From positions 1 to 54,548 of the forward strand of contig JAOACB010000015.1 in the NCBI GenBank assembly GCA_026418055.1: 54,548 bases of DNA, given 5' to 3'. The stretch comes from Fimbriimonadales bacterium (GTDB lineage: Bacteria; Armatimonadota; Fimbriimonadia; Fimbriimonadales; Fimbriimonadaceae). Under the pieces are notes generated by a model. It searched no databases. It was given only the letters and a program-made list of their open reading frames with translations, and was not told where the DNA came from. This document shows, piece after piece, positions 519-12,278 of the stretch (within the stretch, counting starts at the first letter, position 1; every line of letters begins with the position of its first letter). The translations under genes and the position numbers were made by a program.

Positions 519-1808
519 TCAGAGCCTTTCAACGCGAAGCTTCAGAAAGTGCGTGGCGCAGGAGATGCAGGGGTCGTAGTTGCGCACGGCCTGCTCGCAC
601 AGCCACTGCAGCTCCGTGTCGGGTTTATCCAGATTCTTGGCGACCACCTGAGCCAAGTCCTCCTCGACGCATCGAAGGTTCTGTGCCGTGGGAGGCATGA
701 TGTGGGCCCTGCGGATCAGCCCGTCCGAGCCGACCTCATAGCTGTGGAAGCAGATTCCGCGCGGCGCCTCGGAACACCCGCAACCCTTGGCTTCCCTCGG
801 CTCGAAGTCCTCGAAGGGCCGTTCCGGCTCTTGGTACAGGTCCAGAATCCGCAAAGCCTCCTCACAGGCGAAGATCGTCTCGACGGCGCGCACCACGATG
901 CTTCGGAAAGGGTTCGTGACGGGAGGTTCGAGGCCCTGGCGCTTGGCAGCCTGCTTCGCCCTGGGTGTGAGCAGGTCGAAATTCAGGTTGAAGCGGGCCA
1001 TGGGTCCAACCTGGTAGCCTCCCGCTCCCCTGCGCGCCGAGTGCAGGGCGTTGCTGTGTTCGACGTGCTCTTCCGGGAAATGCTCTTCGAACTGGTCGAG
1101 CGACAGCTCGACGCCCGCACTCGAAACGACCTTGCCGTCGAACAGCGGGTACTCGGGAGGGTTGCGCAGCCCTACGAACTCGTACGAGCGATGGAATTCT
1201 GGGAAGGGGAAGCCCGCGACCAAGTCCGCCATCTGATCGGCAGCCTCCAGGGCCCACTCCAGGCTCGGGCGAAGGGCTTGGAGCTCGCTCCTGGTGGGTA
1301 CCTTGTAGAACCCTCCGATCCGCACGTTCACCGGATGGATCTCCCGCCCGCCGAGCAGAGCCATAACGTCGTTTCCGACCTTCTTCAGTCGCAGGGCGGT
1401 GCGCACGACGTCTGGGTGGTCCTTCGCCATTTCGATCGCGTCCGCGTACCCAAGGAAGTCGGGAGCGTGCAGCATCGCGACGTGCAGCACGTGGCTCTCG
1501 ATCCACTCCCCGCAGTAGATCAGGCGGCGCAATGCGCGCACCATCGGATCGATCGAAACCCCGAAAGCCTCCTCGATCGCCCTGGATGCGCTGATCTGGT
1601 AGGCGATCGGACAGATGCCGCAGATCCGCGCCGTGATGTCGGGCGCCTCCGCGCAGTGCCGTCCGACGAGAAACGCCTCGAAGAACCGGGGCGGTTCGTA
1701 GATGCTCAGCTTGGCATCCTGAACCTGGTCGCCTCGGATGCGCACGGTGAGCGCCCCCTCGCCCTCGACACGGGCCAACAGATCAACCTTGAGGTTTCGG
1801 GTTCTCAT
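519..1808 (-). CDS. hyhL: [NiFe]-hydrogenase large (alpha) subunit, group 3b
   Basis: Catalytic subunit of a cytoplasmic bidirectional NADP(H)-linked [NiFe]-hydrogenase (sulfhydrogenase type), 429 aa. The Ni-Fe ligands are all visible: Cys63 and Cys66 in RICGIC, and Cys414 and Cys417 in [10 protein letters not shown] 9-residue tail after His420 should be removed by a maturation endopeptidase. ATG start. It is the last gene of the operon and its start overlaps the end of the small-subunit gene by 26 bases. No hyp maturation genes or cognate protease lie in this window. Family level is secure. Assignment to 3b rests on the B-G-S-L partner set with a flavin/NAD(P) subunit. Physiological direction and NADP preference are inferred. 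Confidence 0.95.
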
Positions 1809-2586
1809 GGGCGGTACTCACAGAATGGAAAGCCTCCGAGGCGGCGTTGAAGCTGCGGAACAGACGCACGATGGCCTCGTCATCCTGGCCCAGGCGTCGA
1901 AGCCATGCGGCCAGCGAGGCACCGTTCGGCGACTCGGCCGGGCCGAAGCACCCGTAGCAGCCCCGATGGAAGCTCGGGCAGATGGCCCCGCAACCGGCTT
2001 GCGTCACCGGGCCTAGGCACGGCCGAGAGGCCGCCACCATGACGCAGACGTTTCCCTTGCGCTTGCACTCGAGGCACACCGAGTACGCCGGGATGTTCGG
2101 CTTTCTGCCATTCAGGAGGGCGTTCAGAACCTCGAGCAGCTGTTCCTTGCTCACCGGGCAACCCCGGAGCTCGAAGTCCACGAACACATGGTTGCGGATC
2201 GGCGTCGACTTGTCGAGCGAATCGATGAACTCGGGCCGCGGGTAGACGGCCTGGATGTAGTTGCGTAGGTTGGCGTAGTTGCGAAGAGCCTGGATGCCCC
2301 CAGCCGTGGCGCACGCGCCGATGCTCACCAGGAACGCGCTGTTTCGACGAATCTCCTGGATCCGCTTGGCGTCGTGGCGAGTGGTGATCGAGCCCTCGAC
2401 CAGGGAGATGTCGTAGGGCCCTTTCAGGACGGCGCGCGTCGCCTCGGGAAAGTAGGCGAGCTCGACCGAACCGAGCACCTCCAACAGCTGGTCCTCGAGA
2501 TCGAGAATGCTCAGCTGGCATCCGTCGCATGAGGCGAACTTCCAAACAGCCAGCTTGGGCCTCTTGGCCTTCGGGATGGCTCTCAC
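1783..2586 (-). CDS. hyhS: [NiFe]-hydrogenase small (delta) subunit, group 3b
   Basis: Electron-transfer subunit partnering the large subunit, 267 aa. Proximal [4Fe-4S] ligands are Cys20 and Cys23 (SCDGC), Cys92 (GACATAGG) and Cys143 (RGCP). Eight further cysteines at 171, 174, 181, 190, 199, 203, 210 and 213 can hold two more clusters. There is no Tat signal, which agrees with a cytoplasmic enzyme. The frame stays open well upstream. I chose the GTG at 2586 because homology begins there (MRAIPK..KLAVWKF) and because its GTG overlaps the TGA of the gamma gene (GTGA), as elsewhere in this window. Confidence 0.93.
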
Positions 2587-3440
2587 AGCTCCCTCTCCAC
2601 GAACAGCGGCTCGATCAAGTCGTAGCGGTAGACCGGCCCGTCCTTGCAGACGAACTCGCCCCTGAGCTGGCAGTGGCCGCACAGGCCGACGCCGCACTTC
2701 ATGTTGCGCTCCATCGACACGTAGATGTTCGCCTCCGCCACGCCGCGCTTCGTCAGCTCCTCGACCGCGAACCGCATCATGATCTCGGGTCCGCACACCA
2801 TCGCCACGGTGTCGGTGGGATCGAACGGAGCGCGTCCCACCAGCTTGGTCACCACTCCGACGTTGCCCCGCCACTCCGTCGTGGCGCGGTCGACGGTGAT
2901 GTGCACCTCCAGGTCGAACTGGGAGCGCCACTTCGCCAACTCTTTGCTGTACAGGATGTCCTCCGGCGATCGGGTTCCATACAGCAACACGACCTTGCCG
3001 TATTCGTCTCTGTTGCGGAGGATCCAGTAGAGAGCCGGCCGCAGGGGGGCGAGGCCGATGCCTCCGGCGACGAGAACCACGTCGTGACCCTTCGCCTCCT
3101 CCATCGGCCAGCTGGTGCCGAAAGGACCGCGGGCGCCGATGGTGTGGCCCGCCTTCAGGTTGCGCATCGCGCGGGTCACGACTCCCACTTCTCTCGTGGT
3201 GTGCACGAGCCTCTTCGTGTCGGTGGCGTCGCCGCTGATGGAGATCGGCACCTCGCCGACGCCGAACACGTACAACATGTTGAACTGGCCCGGCCGGAAA
3301 GCCAGCTCGTAGGTGGGATCGAACGGCTCCAGCTCCAAGGAGAACGTGTCGTTCGTCTCCCGTAAGAAGCGCTCGACCACGTACGGCACCGGGATCATGG
3401 GATCCCGGGCGGCTTGCGTCAGCTCAATGCTTGTCGCCAT
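2583..3440 (-). CDS. hyhG: Hydrogenase gamma subunit, FAD/NAD(P)-binding reductase
   Basis: Ferredoxin-NADP reductase-type diaphorase subunit of the group 3b hydrogenase, 285 aa. It passes electrons between NAD(P)H and the Fe-S chain. An FAD-binding barrel comes first (RPGQFN; VPISISG), then a nucleotide-binding fold with [12 protein letters not shown], then a C-terminal [2Fe-2S] site of Cys249, Cys254, Cys257 and Cys265. Its start overlaps the end of the preceding cNMP-domain gene by 17 bases, and its stop overlaps the small-subunit start, so coupled translation is likely. Same family as sulfhydrogenase gamma and dihydroorotate dehydrogenase electron-transfer subunits; the operon context decides the call. 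Confidence 0.92.
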
Positions 3441-3885
3441 AAACGTCGAGCATCCTCAAGATCGATGCCTGCAACCTCGACTCCATCATCTGCGCCATGC
3501 GCAGCATCAGGTGGTAGCCCAGCTTCGGGTTTGCTTCGCACTTGTTCCGCAGACACTCGCCGTCCAGAGCGATCGCTCGCAGCAGCGTGTCGCAGCGTGC
3601 CGCGAAGTGCCACCGATAGGGTGGGATGAGCCAAGACCACCCCAGCGGCTCGCCCTCCTCGATGGTCTCCACAACCACGACTCCCCTGCCCGGCAGCAGC
3701 AGCTCGAGGGACACCTTTCCGTGCCGCACGAGATAGAAGTGGTTCGCAGGCTCGCCTTCCCGAAAGACGTACTGTCCGGGGTGGAGGACGATGTTCGTGG
3801 CGCAACCGGCGACTTCGTGCACGTCCTCTTCCGAAAACTCCTTGAAGAACTCTTGGCTTCGAATGATCGGATAAAGGTCCGTCAT
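3424..3885 (-). CDS. Stand-alone cyclic-nucleotide-binding-domain protein inside hydrogenase operon
   Basis: A 153-aa protein made almost entirely of one cNMP-binding (CAP_ED-type) beta-roll: [24 protein letters not shown], then a phosphate-binding-cassette-like stretch with GEPLGWSWL and RWHFAARC, ending in a helix. There is no room for a DNA-binding helix-turn-helix, so it is not a CRP/FNR transcription factor. ATG at 3885 overlaps the hyhB stop (ATGA) and its end overlaps the hyhG start, so it is translationally locked into the operon. It may be an allosteric or assembly partner that tunes the hydrogenase to a nucleotide. That role is inference. Confidence 0.85.
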
Positions 3886-5033
3886 CGGACCGCCTCCCTG
3901 TTTCCGCCGACTCTGGATCGGAACGTCTCCAACTCCTCGGTGATGTCGATGCCGACGGGACACCACACGATGCAACGGCCGCAACCGACGCACCCCATCG
4001 TGCCGAACTGGTCCTGCCACGACGCGAGCTTGTGGGTCATCCAGTGGCGATACCTGGCGTACGGCGAGAACCTGACGCTTCCGCCGTGGATGTACGAAAA
4101 CTCCAGCGAGAAGCAAGAGTCCCAAACCCGCTCCCGCTCGGTTTGGCTACCGTCCAGGCTGGTGCGGTCGACCACCGTCACGCAGAAGCAGGTGGGACAG
4201 GCCATCGTGCAGTTCCCGCACATCAGACAACGCTGGGCGATCTCGTCCCAATGGTTGTCCGAGGCGGCTTGGTAGAGCAACTCCTTGGCTCCTTCTGGAT
4301 TCATCCGCCTGCCCATGCGCCTCAGCGCACGCTGCCGTTGCCTCTCGGCGGCCTGGAGGTCGGCGGGAGAGGTTTCGGTCCAAGGCAGCGCGCGAAGCAC
4401 GTCGAGGCCCTTGGAGGATCCAGCGCGGACCAAGAACCGGTGCCGCCCCTGCAGGATCTCCGTCATGGCCAAGTCCCAGCCCTCGCCCTGCTCCGTCGGT
4501 CCCGTGCCGAGGGAGGCGCAGAAGCACCCCCCGCCCGGCTCGTGGCAATCTGCGACCACCACGAAAGCCTGTCTGCGCCGCGATGCGTAGTTCGAATCCT
4601 GGTACTGCCCGTTCGCGAGCACCCGATCCTGAACACGGATGGCGGCCATCTCGCACGGCCGAACGCCGAACAGAGCCAGCTTGGGAGTGTCCTCGACGAT
4701 CGGAAGAAGGTGGAAGCGCGCGCCTTCGCGCTCGGCTCTCCAAAGGCTTCTCTTAGGAGGAAACAGCAGCCGCTTCCAGCTGTGCGGGCCGACGGCGTAG
4801 CCGAAGACTGCATCGTCCTCGCGCCTTTCGAGCCGATAGGTTCCGGCGTCCTGTCGGTCTCGCCACCCGATCGGCAGGTCTCGATCGCTCTCGATCGGCC
4901 CGAGGACGATCGCCCCGTCGGAAAGGATCGGACCATGGACGACGTAGCCCAGTTTCCGGATGGCCTCGAAGAGTCCCGCCAACCGCTCTCGATCCAGCAC
5001 GACCTGGTCGCCGATCCTGAGCGTCCTCGTCAT
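3882..5033 (-). CDS. hyhB: Hydrogenase beta subunit, 2[4Fe-4S] iron-sulfur protein
   Basis: Iron-sulfur electron-transfer subunit of the group 3b hydrogenase, 383 aa. Two ferredoxin-type motifs are seen: Cys269/272/275/279 (CLMCGNCTMAC) and Cys348/351/354/358 (CVGCGRCIVWC). An upstream Cys-rich loop (DCHEPGGGCFC) is typical of the HydB/AsrA family. I chose ATG at 5033 over an in-frame TTG six bases upstream; neither has a clear ribosome binding site. It is the first hydrogenase gene and lies 54 bases after the last gene of the membrane-protein block, so it may be co-transcribed with it. The anaerobic sulfite reductase A subunit is a relative; the following large and small subunits settle the identity. 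Confidence 0.92.
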   Translation of the reverse strand: MTRTLRIGDQVVLDRERLAGLFEAIRKLGYVVHGPILSDGAIVLGPIESDRDLPIGWRDRQDAGTYRLERREDDAVFGYAVGPHSWKRLLFPPKRSLWRAEREGARFHLLPIVEDTPKLALFGVRPCEMAAIRVQDRVLANGQYQDSNYASRRRQAFVVVADCHEPGGGCFCASLGTGPTEQGEGWDLAMTEILQGRHRFLVRAGSSKGLDVLRALPWTETSPADLQAAERQRQRALRRMGRRMNPEGAKELLYQAASDNHWDEIAQRCLMCGNCTMACPTCFCVTVVDRTSLDGSQTERERVWDSCFSLEFSYIHGGSVRFSPYARYRHWMTHKLASWQDQFGTMGCVGCGRCIVWCPVGIDITEELETFRSRVGGNREAVR

Positions 5034-5087
5034 GAGCAAAAACCGTTTTCGCCAAGGCTTACGGCGTTTCCTGCAAAGGACGGCGGC

Positions 5088-6629
5088 TCAGCCGAGCAAC
5101 TGTTGGAAGAACGGTTTGATCCACTCGTCCACCAGAAACATCAGCCGATCCAGCAGAAAGCTCATCCGGCTCATCACGGTGTTCCCGAAGAACGCCCCGA
5201 ACCCGAGCATGAGCAACCATCGTCCCATCCGGCGAACCCCCGTGACCGCTCGGGGCTCGCTTCGGAAAGAGAAGAAAAAGTAGCTCATGACGCAGACGAG
5301 GGTCACGACGAAAACCCAGTTGTCCCAGTAGTCGGATGCCCCCAAAGCCTTGGGCACGTTCGGAAGCTCCAGGGCCGACCCTCCCTCCGGTCCGACAGCG
5401 AACAGCACACCGCCGCTGGATCCGAGCCAAACCACGGGCTTGCGCAGGCTCGTGCGCCAAAGGAGGGCTCCGGCCGTTTGCCGAGAAACGCGGTGCTCCG
5501 CCGCGGCAAAGCCAAGAATCTCACCGCTGGGAAAAGCCGCAAGGAGCGTGGCCTGGTCATGAACCGGGTCCGCCATGCGCGCTACAGCCATCCAGTTGGG
5601 AGAGGCCGGGAGCGGAACTCGGCTGACCACGGTTCCCAGCGATGCATCGACACAGAACGCCTCCCGATCTCCGGCCACGAGAAGGTACCGAGATCCGTCG
5701 AAGAGCTTGGAACCGGCGACGGGTGGCGCCTGCGGCCAGAGCGTACGGCCGTCGACGTCGGAAACAGACATGGCGGCCAAGCCGGACGGCTCCATGCGGT
5801 AGCTTGCCAGAATCTCCCTGCCGTCGGGAGACACGACGCCCTGCTTCACCAAAACATCCTGCCGCCCTCCGTCGGGTTGCCAGCCGCTCTCCAGACCCGT
5901 CTGACCCCTCAGGGTGGGTGGCACCGGGCGACGGGCTCTCACGGTTCCCCGGCCAGTGTCGCGATTGATCAGCACCTCCTTGTCGCCGCAGGGCACCACG
6001 ATGCCCTCGGGGGTCGACCGCAAACGTGCCGAGGGTTCCGCCGGGAGCGGGCACCTCCAGACCTCACGGCCCTCCAGAGTCTCGACGGCCAGAGCCTGAC
6101 GACCTGCGGCCAAGACGAGCAGCGGCTCGTCGAGCAGCGGAGGAACGCTTGAGGCAGGCAACGGGAACAGCGGACGGGGCTGGACGGCGATCGCGCTCGG
6201 GCCGAGCGGTCGGAAGGAATCCACCACCTGCGGAATGTTCTGCCCGAACAGGCTCTTGAACGTGAAGCCCGCGCCGATGCCGACCGTGATGCCGATCACG
6301 ATGCGGCTGAGCCACAGATAGCGGCGGCTGAGCTGGAAGTACCACAGAAGGCCGAGACAACCGACGAGAACCCACAGCGCGCCGTAGGGCGACCCTTGGC
6401 CGCGACCGAGCAGGGCCTCGATGCCGTCGGTCATCGGAAGCCACCACAGCGGATAGAGGATGTCCTTCCACTGCACGACGACCGCGTAGCCGACGTTGAT
6501 GCCGATGAAGATCTGCATCATCAGCCGGTACAAGGGGTTGTCGCGGAAGAGATAGCTGTAGATGGCCAGGACACAGAAGGCTCCCAGCCACACGGCCCAG
6601 CTGGTCGACCAGTACTCGGTCCAGCTCAC
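5088..6629 (-). CDS. Membrane protein with PQQ-like propeller domain, unknown function
   Basis: 513 aa. The N-terminal ~130 residues hold about four membrane helices. A non-membrane part (about 140-400) follows, with repeated strands of quinoprotein-like propeller type (for example LAVETLEGREVWRC). Two or three helices lie at the C-terminus (the clearest is NWVFVVTLVCVMSYFFF). No catalytic motif was recognised. GTG start overlaps the upstream TGA (GTGA). Fourth gene of a tight membrane operon that runs into the hydrogenase genes. A sensor or scaffold is possible, but function is unknown. Confidence 0.8.
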   Translation of the reverse strand: MSWTEYWSTSWAVWLGAFCVLAIYSYLFRDNPLYRLMMQIFIGINVGYAVVVQWKDILYPLWWLPMTDGIEALLGRGQGSPYGALWVLVGCLGLLWYFQLSRRYLWLSRIVIGITVGIGAGFTFKSLFGQNIPQVVDSFRPLGPSAIAVQPRPLFPLPASSVPPLLDEPLLVLAAGRQALAVETLEGREVWRCPLPAEPSARLRSTPEGIVVPCGDKEVLINRDTGRGTVRARRPVPPTLRGQTGLESGWQPDGGRQDVLVKQGVVSPDGREILASYRMEPSGLAAMSVSDVDGRTLWPQAPPVAGSKLFDGSRYLLVAGDREAFCVDASLGTVVSRVPLPASPNWMAVARMADPVHDQATLLAAFPSGEILGFAAAEHRVSRQTAGALLWRTSLRKPVVWLGSSGGVLFAVGPEGGSALELPNVPKALGASDYWDNWVFVVTLVCVMSYFFFSFRSEPRAVTGVRRMGRWLLMLGFGAFFGNTVMSRMSFLLDRLMFLVDEWIKPFFQQLLG

Positions 6630-7501
6630 CGGGAACCTCCCTTGCCCGCGCGCCGCTTGGCAACCATTCCGAGGTTGCCGAGGAGGATGAAGGCGATGAT
6701 TACGAGGTGACCGAAGGCCAGCGGCACGAGCAACCGCCCGCCGCGCAGGCCCTCTTGGTCGTACCGAGAGCCGTACTTCTCGCGCACGAGGGATTCGTAC
6801 TCGGCTGCACCCCGGATCCCCGCCATCATGCCCTTCATCTGACCGGAGCTGATGTACGGGTACCAGCTCGTCGTCACGATGCCCGCGCTACCGAAGGCCA
6901 CCGGCACCCTGCCCGCGGGGTCCAGCCACACCATCCAGTCGAGCGACGGCTGGTATTCGATGGCCCAAAGGATCTGAAAGTCCGCCGCCCCGGTGACGCC
7001 CTGCAGGATCGGTAGCTTGCTCGCATCGTTCGTCGAGTTGCCGCGGTAGTCCCTGGGGAACACCGACTTGATGTTCCGGCCGATCGAAGCCATGATGAGC
7101 GGGGCGCCGCGAACCATCCCGAGGTTCACCCAGTCTTTGCCGTATTCCCGCCCGTACTTGGCCGCCTGGCGCTCGTTGATGCGCTCGGAAAACTGAGGCG
7201 CCAGAGGATCGGAGTCCACGGCGATCACGACGAACTTGATCCCGCGCAGCATCAAGTGGCTGACCAGCGCCTCGTACTGGGGCCAGTTCTCACCCTGGCT
7301 TCCCTGCACCCAGTTGCTGCAGATGAGCACCACCTTGTTCGGGGGCGTGGAATCCGTGACCTCGAAGACCGCGCGCGTCTCAGGCCACACGTACAGAGGT
7401 AGCCGCACGTCCAGGAAGAACGGCAAGCCGCAGGCGACGAACATCAGCAGGTAGATGGTCTGCCGAGGGACCCGGTCGAGGCGGGCCAGCCAGCCCCACA
7501 T
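6626..7501 (-). CDS. Membrane-anchored protein of unknown function
   Basis: 291 aa with one helix near residues 16-32, a soluble domain of about 220 residues, and a second helix near 262-280 followed by a basic tail (KRRAGKGG). The soluble part has strand-loop patterns such as KVVLICSNW and KFVVIAVDSDP that suggest an alpha/beta fold, but I see no known active site. Start is one base after the upstream gene's stop; its own stop overlaps the next start. Part of the four-gene membrane block. Confidence 0.8.
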   Translation of the reverse strand: MWGWLARLDRVPRQTIYLLMFVACGLPFFLDVRLPLYVWPETRAVFEVTDSTPPNKVVLICSNWVQGSQGENWPQYEALVSHLMLRGIKFVVIAVDSDPLAPQFSERINERQAAKYGREYGKDWVNLGMVRGAPLIMASIGRNIKSVFPRDYRGNSTNDASKLPILQGVTGAADFQILWAIEYQPSLDWMVWLDPAGRVPVAFGSAGIVTTSWYPYISSGQMKGMMAGIRGAAEYESLVREKYGSRYDQEGLRGGRLLVPLAFGHLVIIAFILLGNLGMVAKRRAGKGGSR

Positions 7502-7502
7502 C

Positions 7503-8726
7503 TCAGTCGCCTCCTCCCATCGCGGAACCCTTCTCCAGGTTCAACCAATAGCGCAGCGCGGTGCCGATGCCACCGAGCATGGTGCCGAAGATCAGACCTC
7601 GCACCACGGCGGAGTTGGGCACCCGTAGGATCCATCCGGCGACGTTCGGCAGCCACAGCGCCTTCAGTTGCTCGCCGAGCCAACCTGTGAGGTACATGCC
7701 GAAAGGCGTTTGGCCGAGCATGACGATCAGCGCCGTCGCCATCATCAGCGCCGCTTCGGCAGAACGGATGCGGAAGGCCCGATACGCCGCGCTGGCAAGG
7801 TAGAAGGCCAACAGGCTGAAGATGGTGGATCCCACGGGCCCCAACAGCCGGAAAACGATCGTGTCGCTGAAGGCGCGCTCCGTGGTGTTCGGGTCGTAGT
7901 ACTTGTACACTCCGGCGCAAACGCCGACGGCAACCGCCGCGAAGAACGCGAGCGCCACCCAGCGATCCTCGCCGGAGCGCTTCAGCTTGCGCCCGTTGAC
8001 CATGGCTAGGCTCAGCAGACCCATCCCGAGCGCCAGGGTGCCGAGCACCGTGTTGAACTGCGCGGCGGTGTCGCGCTGATCGCGCAGGAACGTCGTGTGG
8101 CCGATGGCCAGGGTGTCCCCGACCCTCGCCTCGTAGGGTTCGATCTCGTCGGGGGTGCCCTTTCGCTTCTCCCTCAGCACGGCCACGTGGGGACCGAGCT
8201 GGATCGTCGCCCGCTCTCGGTTCTGGAGCAGCGTCACGCTCCCCCACTGCACTTCGGCGACCCGAGCCGAGCGAACCTCCACGCGCACCTTGCTGCCGAT
8301 CGGCAAGGCTGCGAGGTCCGCCGGCGTCTCCTCCGAACCGTCCAGGTAGAGCTGCTCCCCAGGGCGAAGCGCGGCGACCGCTCCCTCGGCATCCACCACC
8401 AGCCCGTTCCGCAAGCCGCCGAACACGAACGTCCTCGTCCGTGCAGTCAGCGTCTCTCCGACCGACACCTCGCGCGTGCGTTGGACCTTGGCTTGCAGCT
8501 TGCCTGTGGGGTCTCGAACCATCATCGACAGCTCAACGCCGGGCCGAACGGCCACATCCACGAAGTCCCCTGCGCCGGTCCGCAAACGAACGACCGTTGG
8601 GTCGTGGGAGAGGTAGATCCCTCTGGAGGTGCGGCCCGGCACCGTGGGTGGCAACACGAACTCTAAGAGGAAGTACAGGCCCGCGAGGAAGGTGAGGATC
8701 GCAATGAACCGGCGTCTCGCTGCCAT
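7503..8726 (-). CDS. Polytopic membrane protein with large exported domain, unknown function
   Basis: 407 aa. One N-terminal helix (about residues 7-25) is followed by roughly 200 residues rich in beta-strand patterns, then five or six helices from about residue 225 to the end. No enzyme motif was recognised. It starts three bases after the upstream stop, so it is certainly in the same transcript. Within the block it could be the membrane core to which the two anchored soluble proteins bind; that is inference. Confidence 0.8.
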   Translation of the reverse strand: MAARRRFIAILTFLAGLYFLLEFVLPPTVPGRTSRGIYLSHDPTVVRLRTGAGDFVDVAVRPGVELSMMVRDPTGKLQAKVQRTREVSVGETLTARTRTFVFGGLRNGLVVDAEGAVAALRPGEQLYLDGSEETPADLAALPIGSKVRVEVRSARVAEVQWGSVTLLQNRERATIQLGPHVAVLREKRKGTPDEIEPYEARVGDTLAIGHTTFLRDQRDTAAQFNTVLGTLALGMGLLSLAMVNGRKLKRSGEDRWVALAFFAAVAVGVCAGVYKYYDPNTTERAFSDTIVFRLLGPVGSTIFSLLAFYLASAAYRAFRIRSAEAALMMATALIVMLGQTPFGMYLTGWLGEQLKALWLPNVAGWILRVPNSAVVRGLIFGTMLGGIGTALRYWLNLEKGSAMGGGD

Positions 8727-8729
8727 TCC

Positions 8730-9509
8730 TCAGAACCTCAGCAGAGACTCGTACACGTTCAGCGGGTTGCCCGAACCGAACAGGGTGGCACCGATCACCC
8801 CGGCGAGGATGAGGAGCAGAAGAAACAGCTTGCCCAAGTCTTGCCCCACGACGCTCCCTAGCATCGTGGGCTCGCGGGTCAGATAGGCGGAGCAGGCGAA
8901 CAGCTCCTCCACCATCACGACGTAGTCGCAGGAGGCCACGAAGAAGGGGATCTGGTAGTAGTCCGACGTGCCCGCGATCTGCATGCAGCCTGCGATCTGG
9001 CCGCCCTCGGAGTACAGAAGCGACGTGTAGTCGTACGCGCCGAACAGGAAGCAGCTCGAGACCTTCTCATCGACGAGGAGCTGCGTGGTACCCAGCGCCG
9101 TCAGGTCTCCGGCTGGAGAAATGAAGCGCACCTCCGACCAATTGGCCAACTCGGGCCTGCCAGCCGCTGCGAAGGACGCTTTGATCACGTCCTCCCAGAT
9201 CGGCACCATCACGGGCATGGCGGTGGTCACGAGGATGCGGTTCCCATACTTGGCGGCCGTCTTGCAGATGTGCTCCAAGATGCCGACCGCCGCGAGGGTC
9301 TGCACGTTGGTGAAGTCGGCGATGCCGCCGTGGAAGAGCAGCGGGCCACCCAGCTCGGCGGAGCGGCCGACCGCCTCCTCGATCGCGTTCAGACCTGGAA
9401 TCGGTCGGATGTACAGCTGCCGCCCTTTCCTGGCCGAGCCGATCTTCCACAGGACCAAGCCCGCGAAGACCACCATGAGGAGCAGAACCTGCCAGTTGGC
9501 GTTATCCAT
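8730..9509 (-). CDS. DUF6754-like membrane protein, first gene of membrane operon
   Basis: 259 aa. A helix at about 7-23 is followed by a soluble domain beginning near RPIPGLNAIEEAVGRS, and one or two helices near the C-terminus (LFLLLLILAGVIGATLF). The GLNAIEEAVGR and ILVTTAMP stretches recall the DUF6754 family as I remember it; I could not check this. I chose the ATG at 9509, which places the membrane helix at the N-terminus; the frame itself is open a little further. It begins a run of four membrane genes with gaps of 3, 1 and -4 bases. Confidence 0.78.
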   Translation of the reverse strand: MDNANWQVLLLMVVFAGLVLWKIGSARKGRQLYIRPIPGLNAIEEAVGRSAELGGPLLFHGGIADFTNVQTLAAVGILEHICKTAAKYGNRILVTTAMPVMVPIWEDVIKASFAAAGRPELANWSEVRFISPAGDLTALGTTQLLVDEKVSSCFLFGAYDYTSLLYSEGGQIAGCMQIAGTSDYYQIPFFVASCDYVVMVEELFACSAYLTREPTMLGSVVGQDLGKLFLLLLILAGVIGATLFGSGNPLNVYESLLRF

Positions 9510-9584: not shown

Positions 9585-12278
9585 TCAAGGGGCGCCGAGG
9601 TACAGGATGGAGTGGCGCAAGCCGAACGACTTCACGAACCCGATGTCGTCGAAGTCGCCCATCGGCTCCTCCTCGATGCCCGTTCCGCGGTATCCGACGT
9701 GGATCTCCCCGTCCCGCTCGGGTCGGTCGTCGGCCCATCGGTAGGCGTAAAGGATGTCGCCGTCCCACCATGCCGCGTGAGGCGAGGACCGTGAGGTCGT
9801 CCACTCGTCGTACAGCATCTTCACCAGCCAGCCGTCCGACTTGTTTCGGTCGGCGATCTGGTGGGCCACGAAACAGACGGACCGTTCGTTGCCCCATTCG
9901 CCGCCTCTACCGAAGAAGTAGATGCGGCCCTCCCTCCCGGCTGCCTTCGAACCGTCGAAGAGGATCGTCGGCCTGCCGACGCCCCGGGCGCCTCCCCTCT
10001 CCCCCTCGACGAACACCGTGGGTCCCTGCACGAGGGCTCCGCTCCTCTGCAACATCCATCGCTGGACGGCCCAACGCCCTTGGAGCTGGCCACCCAAGTC
10101 GGCGAGGAACCCAAGGAGCAAATGGCCCGCGCGGGTGTCCTCGCAGAGGGTCACAGGCGAATTGGACTTCAGCGACCCGCCCGGCAACCTCCTCCAGCTC
10201 CCGTCGAGGGTCCAGAGCGTCGCCTCCTTGGAGGAGGCGGACCACAGCGCCGCGAACACCCTCCCCTTGACCAAGGCAACCGTCGGGACATCGTCGGCGT
10301 CGCCACCCATCGGCCGAGGTGCGCCGATCGCTTCGCCGCTCTCCTTGAGCCAAAGCCACTGCGGCCCGTTGGCGGTCGGGAACACGATCAGGAGCTTGCC
10401 CTCTGCGGCCACCCCGGCGGGATCTCCGATGGCACCCGCGGCGACGGCAAGGGGCTCGGACCAGCGCCTTCCCTCTCCCAAGCGTCGCAGTCCGATGACC
10501 CCAGGCTGAGTACCATCCAGAGGCGAAGTCTGCAAGGCCAGCATCCAGGCGTTCTTGCCCCTGGTGATCAGCCAGGGAGAACCGGCGGCCTTGCCCACAT
10601 GCTGCCGCACGCCAGCGGAGGTGCTGTAGCCGTAGTTGACGTCGGCTCGAACGCGCCTCTCGCCAAAAACTCCGTTCCAGTTCCAGTCGATCAGCGTGCG
10701 CTCTCCGTCGGCCTTCAGATTGAAGCGGTAGGGTCCCTTCGCCAGGAAGGCGACCTTCTCCAGCGGCAGGGGCAACACCTCATCGAGAGCGGTCTCCCTA
10801 AGGACGAGGTTCCCCAGCTCCCCCCGGCTGAACTGGATTCGGTCACGGCTGTCCTCGAATCCATAGGCGTAGGCGTAGTTCATGAGCGACGGGTAGATCG
10901 GACACCATGCTGGCTGCCAGAAGCCCGAGTGGTCCAAGCCAACCTGGTGGCCGAGCTCATGGGCGAACGTGGCCCAAAGGGTGCCTTCGCCGCCCCCGCA
11001 CCCCCCTCCATCGTCCAGCATCCCGGACTGCCCTCCGCCGCCAGCCGTGAGCTGCATCCAGTGGGCGATCCCTCGGTGGGCCATTGGCAGGCGGCGATCG
11101 CGGATCTCCCACCAAGGAAGTTGCTGTTCGGCCCTCGGGACAGGATCCTGCCAGACCGGGTGAAGCCGAATGCCGTATCGCCCGTAAAGCTCCGCCGCTC
11201 GGCGGATCTCGCGCTCCTGCATCGGGCGGTCGGTTCCTTCGAACGGCGCGAGGTAGCAGACCAGGTCGGGCAGGCGAGGATCGCACCCCAGTGCGGCCAG
11301 GTCGAGGCCACGAAAGCCGCGTGCCTCCCAACCATCCAGCAGGCCGTCTCCGTCCGTGTCGGAGTTCCGGGGATCGGTTCCCAGTCGCGTCTCCTCGCCA
11401 TCGGACAACCCATCTCGGTCGGGGTCGTCCTCTCCGGCGGACACCGCGCGGAGCAGCAGCACCTGATGGGCGGTGTGGCGCTCTGTCCCGTAGCGGAACA
11501 CCAAGACGTCCAGGTCGCCGTCGGCATCCACATCGCTCAGCCGCCGGATCTCCCGCGCCGGCGGCAAGCTGATTGCCGGCAACGGGACCTCGTTGCCTGC
11601 GGGATCCACGAGCCGGTCCGCCAGCGCCAGCCATCCCTCGTGGACCCCAGGGATCGAGCCCTTCGGCATTCGGAGATTCCGGAAGGGGAGGAACCGACCC
11701 TCCTCAGACCATCGTCCCACCTGACCATCCTCGCGAACGGCCCACTTGACGGACCCGTCCGTCGCCCAAACGAGGCCTTTTGGGAACGCGATCCGGCGCA
11801 CGGACCCTGAGCGGAGAGAGATCTCCGCGGCTGAGCCGCTCCGCCGGTCGACGAGAACCAGACGATGGCTGGGCTCTTCCAGAAAGAAAGGCTCAGCCCA
11901 CGAGCCGGGCACCGCGCGCCAGCGAAGCGTCCGCTCGAACCTGCCTTCGCCGCGTCCCGAGGCCAGATGGAGGTAGCCGTCGGCGAAGGCCGCGACGTCC
12001 GGCCCGGGACGGTCGTCGAACTCGCCCACCGCGGCGGCTCGAATGCCCGCCACGAAAGGATTGAGCCCTTGGAACGGCCGGCCGGCTTTCTGCCCGCCTT
12101 GGTTCAGGCTCGAATCGAGGATGCCGGGAGCCTCCGGAAACACCGCGAGCAGGTCACCGCGACGGTCTCCATTGAGATCCACGTTGAACGGAAGCCGGGG
12201 CGGCGCGGCGAACCCCAAGGCCCACGGCGTGGGAACGCAGAAAGTCGTCGGGAGGGCCAACGGGATCCAGGCCAACAT
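9585..12278 (-). CDS. Secreted metzincin-like metalloprotease with FG-GAP and calcium-binding repeats
   Basis: 897 aa with a hydrophobic N-terminus that looks like a signal peptide. FG-GAP/VCBS-like repeats follow (DLNGDRRGDLLAVF near 34-47; DVDADGDLDVLVF near 249-261). Thrombospondin type 3-like acidic calcium motifs lie at about 284-315 (DPDRDGLSDG, DTDGDGLLDG). The zinc site HELGHQVGLDH at 440-450 fits HExxHxxGxxH. The remaining ~440 residues read as a second propeller or repeat region. Probably an extracellular or surface calcium-dependent protease. A -10-like TAAAGT lies six bases before the ATG. Substrate unknown. Confidence 0.85.
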   Translation of the reverse strand: MLAWIPLALPTTFCVPTPWALGFAAPPRLPFNVDLNGDRRGDLLAVFPEAPGILDSSLNQGGQKAGRPFQGLNPFVAGIRAAAVGEFDDRPGPDVAAFADGYLHLASGRGEGRFERTLRWRAVPGSWAEPFFLEEPSHRLVLVDRRSGSAAEISLRSGSVRRIAFPKGLVWATDGSVKWAVREDGQVGRWSEEGRFLPFRNLRMPKGSIPGVHEGWLALADRLVDPAGNEVPLPAISLPPAREIRRLSDVDADGDLDVLVFRYGTERHTAHQVLLLRAVSAGEDDPDRDGLSDGEETRLGTDPRNSDTDGDGLLDGWEARGFRGLDLAALGCDPRLPDLVCYLAPFEGTDRPMQEREIRRAAELYGRYGIRLHPVWQDPVPRAEQQLPWWEIRDRRLPMAHRGIAHWMQLTAGGGGQSGMLDDGGGCGGGEGTLWATFAHELGHQVGLDHSGFWQPAWCPIYPSLMNYAYAYGFEDSRDRIQFSRGELGNLVLRETALDEVLPLPLEKVAFLAKGPYRFNLKADGERTLIDWNWNGVFGERRVRADVNYGYSTSAGVRQHVGKAAGSPWLITRGKNAWMLALQTSPLDGTQPGVIGLRRLGEGRRWSEPLAVAAGAIGDPAGVAAEGKLLIVFPTANGPQWLWLKESGEAIGAPRPMGGDADDVPTVALVKGRVFAALWSASSKEATLWTLDGSWRRLPGGSLKSNSPVTLCEDTRAGHLLLGFLADLGGQLQGRWAVQRWMLQRSGALVQGPTVFVEGERGGARGVGRPTILFDGSKAAGREGRIYFFGRGGEWGNERSVCFVAHQIADRNKSDGWLVKMLYDEWTTSRSSPHAAWWDGDILYAYRWADDRPERDGEIHVGYRGTGIEEEPMGDFDDIGFVKSFGLRHSILYLGAP

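Follow-up and report, generated by a model that had tools for sequence, protein, structure and literature searches.

DUF6754 (Pfam PF20539) is a family name to which neither a function nor a system is attached. No publication naming DUF6754, PF20539, or PF13941 was found in a literature search that covered a minority of subscription papers and no bioRxiv preprints. PF13941 is the MutL family of actin-fold proteins, named after a glutamate mutase accessory protein. In the inner-membrane platforms of type II secretion systems and type IV pili, an actin-fold cytoplasmic protein, such as PilM or GspL, is encoded together with membrane proteins having extracytoplasmic domains.

The stretch of DNA analyzed here, called the window, comprises 54,548 nucleotides from a Fimbriimonadales bacterium (GCA_026418055.1, contig JAOACB010000015.1; genome G000, contig C41 in our collection). 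Four consecutive genes in it, here named A, B, C, and D, can be compared with each of these families and systems. A is a full-length member of DUF6754. In several phyla a MutL gene immediately precedes ABCD; the window lacks one. The likeness of ABCD plus MutL to PilM/GspL platforms is one of layout only; no sequence match was found, and neither a secretin nor an ATPase of pili or secretion was seen to recur beside ABCD. Next to the four genes lies an operon that resembles the NAD(P)-linked [NiFe] hydrogenase/sulfhydrogenase HydBGDA in all four subunits, with scores far under the NCBIfam equivalog cut-offs (the best matches were to sulfhydrogenase HydA/ShyA, at 263.6 bits versus a cut-off of 880); it is a candidate member of hydrogenase group 3b. 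The operon adjoins A to D, and its products are not relatives of theirs.

Gene set, coordinates, and family membership

The open reading frames of A to D run along the minus strand from 9509 to 5088 (Table 1), and each of the four products has hydrophobic segments. A and C have one such segment at each end with a soluble domain between, B has about six, and D has at least five. The initial annotation had described four co-directional membrane-protein genes, and its account of their spacing agrees exactly with the ORF coordinates: A and B are 3 bp apart, B and C are 1 bp apart, C and D overlap by 4 bp, and the ATG of hydB at 5033 lies 54 bp downstream of D. It was also right that a hydrogenase operon follows, but its gene names (hyhB, G, S, and L) give way to hydB, a cNMP-binding protein gene, hydG, hydD, and hydA.

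Table 1. Positions of the ABCD genes, their inserts, and the adjoining hydrogenase operon within the window
Feature	Position	Strand	Description
gene A	8730..9509	-	259 aa; DUF6754; soluble Rossmann-like domain flanked by TM helices, one on each side
gene B	7503..8726	-	407 aa; membrane protein, about six TM segments, core of ~205 aa plus inserted soluble domain
insert in B	8079..8615	-	between TM1 and TM2, ~residues 38-216; from alignment; boundaries approximate
gene C	6626..7501	-	291 aa; Rossmann-like domain between two TM helices
gene D	5088..6629	-	513 aa; membrane protein, core of ~200-220 aa plus inserted propeller-like domain
propeller-like insert in D	5325..6206	-	~residues 142-435; from alignments and PQQ_2; boundaries approximate
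D/hydB gap	5034..5087	-	54 bp, without terminator; 55 bp in same-genus genome G149
hydrogenase operon	519..5033	-	NAD(P)-linked [NiFe]; taken as lying outside the ABCD system
hydB	3882-5033	-	hydrogenase operon
cNMP-binding protein	3424-3885	-	between hydB and hydG
hydG	2583-3440	-	hydrogenase operon
hydD	~1783-2580	-	hydrogenase operon
hydA	519-1808	-	hydrogenase operon

Comparison of the window with G149, a genome of the same genus (locus L069), gave the lowest dN/dS values for A (0.05) and C (0.06), with 0.16 for B and 0.23 for D; hydB, hydG, and hydA gave 0.12 to 0.17. A to D are therefore real genes, all four under purifying selection, and A and C are under tighter constraint than the hydrogenase. 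Repeats in the region were limited to short, poorly matching pairs. The gene upstream of window A is secreted-protease-like: it encodes 897 aa (9585-12278, minus strand like A), ends 75 bp before A, and has TSP3 repeats and a weak metallopeptidase match. Its homolog in G149 (903 aa, with FG-GAP repeats) also precedes A, and ORFs of 903 aa adjoin A in genome G148 and at locus L087.

Protein A matched PF20539 over residues 4 to 243 with an E value of 1.6e-71 (240.9 bits, against a curated cut-off of 27). D carried a match to the beta-propeller family PQQ_2 (29.4 bits versus a curated cut-off of 27.6), which upholds the earlier proposal of an internal propeller in one of the proteins. B and C had no Pfam match, D had none besides the PQQ_2 insert, and none of the four proteins had an NCBIfam match, leaving three of the four subunits without a family name and the fourth with a DUF. 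The earlier remark that none of them has a recognized function holds. No Pfam family recurred across 27 B, 77 C, and 26 D homologs, and weak single-member Pfam matches of B and D were rejected because they were not reproducible among homologs. Profile comparison detected no similarity between A and C or between B and D, and mutual duplication within either pair was rejected. Sequence searches of the PDB found no relatives of the DUF6754 domain or of the C domain; sequence matches to solved structures were confined to the Fn3 part that extends A at its N terminus in other phyla, and nothing convincing was found for MutL.

Distribution, upstream partners, and paralogs

DUF6754 was present in 252 of 291 Armatimonadota genomes (181 of the 194 of good quality), a sample dominated by metagenome-assembled genomes; all 14 control genomes lacked it. 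A scan of a public genome collection returned at least 576 DUF6754 loci or relatives, the best 80 of which came from Armatimonadota, Planctomycetota, Zixibacteria, Fermentibacteria, WOR-3/Stahlbacteria, Eisenbacteria, Latescibacterota, Cloacimonadota, and others. When 120 loci were processed with a simple gene caller, 100 of 152 places had B, C, and D immediately after A and on its strand, and the four-gene arrangement is therefore not due to chance. Median gaps in the loci with this order were 9 bp for A/B, −1 bp for B/C, and −1 bp for C/D. ABCD is a real conserved unit recurring in many phyla, and the window has it in the same form, with the four genes in order, on one strand, and touching. 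Retention in more than 90% of good-quality Armatimonadota genomes and tandem sets in several phyla suggest that ABCD is probably important to the cell.

The remaining 52 A genes without a complete BCD mostly reflect contig ends or gene-caller losses, with some true A-B-only clusters among them. In most of the A-B-only clusters (L050, L053, L072, L074, L077, and L079), B is 520 to 570 aa long and has a large soluble insert, which is propeller-like by eye in L079 and has no Pfam match in L072; this insert is apparently independent of the one in window D. Many loci have two or three tandem ABCD sets, and duplication or triplication of the whole set was seen in Zixibacteria and related lineages (L104, L119, L135, L154, L159, and L161).

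In several lineages, ABCD is extended upstream to give the order P1, P2, MutL, BSH, A, B, C, D. P1 is a membrane protein of ~150 aa, P2 has ~100 to 160 aa, MutL matches PF13941 (E value of 2e-121 in L081), and BSH is a 375-aa protein with a weak barrel-sandwich (lipoyl/RnfC_N) match. Of 120 loci, 29 had MutL, 31 had BSH, 48 had P1, and 55 had P2. None of the four is encoded directly upstream of window A, and only P1/P2-like genes precede A in the canonical copy found in the window's own family. With its boundaries drawn in this way, the module is a definite set of genes, A to D plus P1, P2, MutL, and BSH in some lineages. No mutase gene recurred among the grouped neighbors of ABCD. PADLOC gave no match for A to D, MutL, BSH, or P2, and a known anti-phage defense system was rejected.

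Neighborhood clustering showed that glycine-cleavage genes, TonB/ExbBD, recO, glmU, and prs recur within lineages only (all names except TonB/ExbBD were assigned by eye). For example, a TonB-dependent receptor with ExbB/ExbD/TonB is encoded downstream of ABCD in Fermentibacteria, and in Stahlbacteria (L145 and L157) a DUF4388 protein and ExbB/ExbD/TonB follow ABCD on the same strand. Two ~215-aa proteins, roadblock-like by eye and without a Pfam match, are also encoded after ABCD at the two Stahlbacteria loci. In Fermentibacteria and their relatives (L105, L095, L100, L115, L124, and related loci), gcvT-gcvH-gcvPA-gcvPB, named by eye, lie directly upstream of P2-MutL-BSH-ABCD.

The genome of the window carries a second, canonical copy of the set on contig C62 (locus L067). 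A tree built from 149 A sequences places window A with its own genus and then with L088 to L092 (support of 1.0), at 4.2 substitutions per site from the canonical copy. By protein search, the subfamily of window A, here called A' (at least 51% identity), is present in 18 genomes of the phylum, which belong to the window's genus, to the same family (G091 and G094, 64% identity), and to more distant families (51 to 53%). A propeller-like insert in D occurs in the window and G149, is shorter in G091 and G094, and is absent from the other aligned D proteins; it is longer in the window than in genus g6. PQQ_2 matches were also obtained in L069 and L181, below the cut-off. Window D is the longest D among the loci compared, and the insert between TM1 and TM2 of B is absent or short in most homologs.

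Predicted folds and proposed organization of a probable complex

AlphaFold2 models of A (mean pLDDT of 94.4, from 75 sequences) and C (mean pLDDT of 93.6, from 77 sequences) predict in each an alpha/beta Rossmann-like domain between N-terminal and C-terminal hydrophobic helices. Positive charges follow TM1 of A, and Fn3 domains lie ahead of TM1 in many homologs, so the soluble domain of A should be cytoplasmic. In C, positive charges precede TM1 and follow TM2, a bias by which its soluble part should be, and probably is, extracytoplasmic. Residues of A that are strictly or nearly strictly conserved include R35, G48-R49, E52, Q177, Q186, D195, E202, D224, and K227, which suggests a predicted binding site or interface; no classic nucleotide-binding loop was recognized in A. 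Foldseek and VIA-align 2 returned middling, tied Rossmann-like matches to common nucleotide-binding folds, with top Z values shared by unrelated folds and no specific relative among them. The matches of A were to PGK, Sir2, RCK domains, and transhydrogenase dIII, and those of C to the CODH/ACS epsilon subunit, TON_0340, and dehydrogenases; naming the proteins by fold was rejected, and none of these matches was used to assign a function.

The four-gene order recurs in many phyla, often in tandem sets, and no described complex was matched, in support of what the initial annotation had suggested: the four proteins are probably parts of one complex, and the system is an undescribed one. The explanation we favor, with moderate confidence, is that A to D are subunits of a widely conserved inner-membrane complex, a transporter or transducer of an undescribed kind, and that the window has a divergent paralog of it beside a hydrogenase. 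Conservation, gene order, the fold models of A and C, and the lack of a general hydrogenase link are results of the tools used, and we infer complex formation, topology, and transport or transduction. By an undescribed kind of system we mean that no known kind was found in the searches by sequence and by the fold models of A and C.

In such a complex, B and D would form the membrane core, A would place its Rossmann-like domain in the cytoplasm, and C would place another on the outer face of the membrane. The assembly could then act as a transporter or trans-membrane transducer, coupling the binding of a ligand or partner on one face to the other. The MutL-type actin-fold ATPase, the barrel-sandwich protein, and the two small proteins encoded upstream are probably part of the same machine in several phyla. 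The copy in the window would be a second, divergent paralog that lacks MutL, BSH, P1, and P2 and has gained extra, putatively extracytoplasmic domains in B and D. Placed directly upstream of an NAD(P)-linked hydrogenase operon in one genus, it may share a transcript with the hydrogenase and would not be a hydrogenase subunit.

The neighboring hydrogenase and competing explanations

The initial annotation had named two observations that would speak against a link to the hydrogenase: occurrence of the four genes mostly without it and a terminator between them. ABCD does usually occur without the hydrogenase, a HydA relative being found in 75 of the 291 phylum genomes versus 252 with DUF6754, but the gap of 54 bp (55 bp in G149) contains no terminator-like site and no unusual fold. 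Read-through is therefore plausible, as is co-transcription of ABCD with the hydrogenase in this genus. For comparison, all DUF6754 genes were listed in 18 genomes outside the genus whose HydA is full length and at least 43% identical. None had DUF6754 on the hydrogenase contig, several of these contigs measuring 0.13 to 1.3 Mb. The 13 hydrogenase loci that were read contain hydB, the cNMP gene (in several), hydG, hydD, and hydA, although not every gene was called in each; none has ABCD, and other genes lie upstream of hydB. G091 and G094, whose A' orthologs are the nearest outside the genus, have no hydrogenase adjoining A', and G091 encodes its own copy of the same hydrogenase on another contig. 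The junction was seen in the window and in G149, while both G148 contigs end before it. These results confine the junction to the window's genus, the proposed functional link to the hydrogenase was not sustained, and a general role of ABCD as a hydrogenase accessory was rejected by gene neighborhood. Annotators could easily label A to D as hydrogenase accessory proteins, a misleading lead that is corrected here.

A narrower proposal, that the window copy alone is a partner of the hydrogenase through membrane docking, sensing by the propeller, or electron exit, draws on the shared strand, the short terminator-free gap, and the survival of the junction in a second species, and still appears improbable given that the junction is limited to one genus. 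A' does co-occur with this hydrogenase at the genus level, in 3 of 6 genera that have it versus 9 of 150 others (Fisher P = 0.006, with counts made by hand and genera treated as independent). This is a weak hint because genera were counted as independent and there is no adjacency in the other two genera, and the preferred explanation attributes it to common ancestry or ecology. A' occurs in six genomes that lack this hydrogenase, one of them only 77% complete. Neither Pfam nor NCBIfam gave a hydrogenase subunit match for A to D. No CxxC motif (heme c or Fe-S ligand) occurs in any of the four, and nothing therefore points to a cofactor of this kind for carrying electrons. Judged from its family, the hydrogenase would need no membrane electron exit, because HydG already supplies an NAD(P)/FAD subunit.

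The upstream partners raise another alternative, that ABCD is the core of a larger MutL-driven trans-envelope machine with a layout like that of the type II secretion and type IV pilus platforms. It is consistent with the P1-P2-MutL-BSH genes that immediately precede ABCD in several phyla, with a MutL-BSH pair ahead of an A'-type copy in G235, and with the downstream ExbB/ExbD/TonB genes of Fermentibacteria and Stahlbacteria, joined in Fermentibacteria by a TonB-dependent receptor. However, MutL and BSH accompany about a quarter of loci and are absent both at the window and at its own canonical copy, the TonB/ExbBD neighbors are lineage-bound, and no secretion or pilus part was matched by sequence, so that we regard this alternative as unlikely. 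A broader proposal, less likely than not, takes ABCD as the core of a trans-envelope machine that is so far undescribed, occurs in many diderm phyla, is absent from common model bacteria, and is energized by a MutL-type actin-fold ATPase in many lineages; the window copy would be a specialized paralog that has extracytoplasmic sensor domains and became part of a hydrogenase transcript by recruitment. It seems quite unlikely that A to D make up an ordinary transporter of solutes or a complex handling polysaccharides, from families diverged past sequence detection: the Rossmann-like folds of A and C do resemble many known domains, among them RCK/TrkA_N, transhydrogenase dIII, and glycosyltransferases, but no fold match stands out from the tied Z values, and the DUF6754 and C domains have no sequence match in the PDB.

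The cNMP gene of the window's hydrogenase operon is also inserted in hydrogenase operons of other Armatimonadota (L168, L172, L173, L175, and L177). HydA relatives with one in-frame TGA each were seen on G265:C285, G270:C32, G271:C185, G273:C25, G194:C1, G246:C19, and G199:C225, and are possibly selenocysteine-containing hydrogenases.
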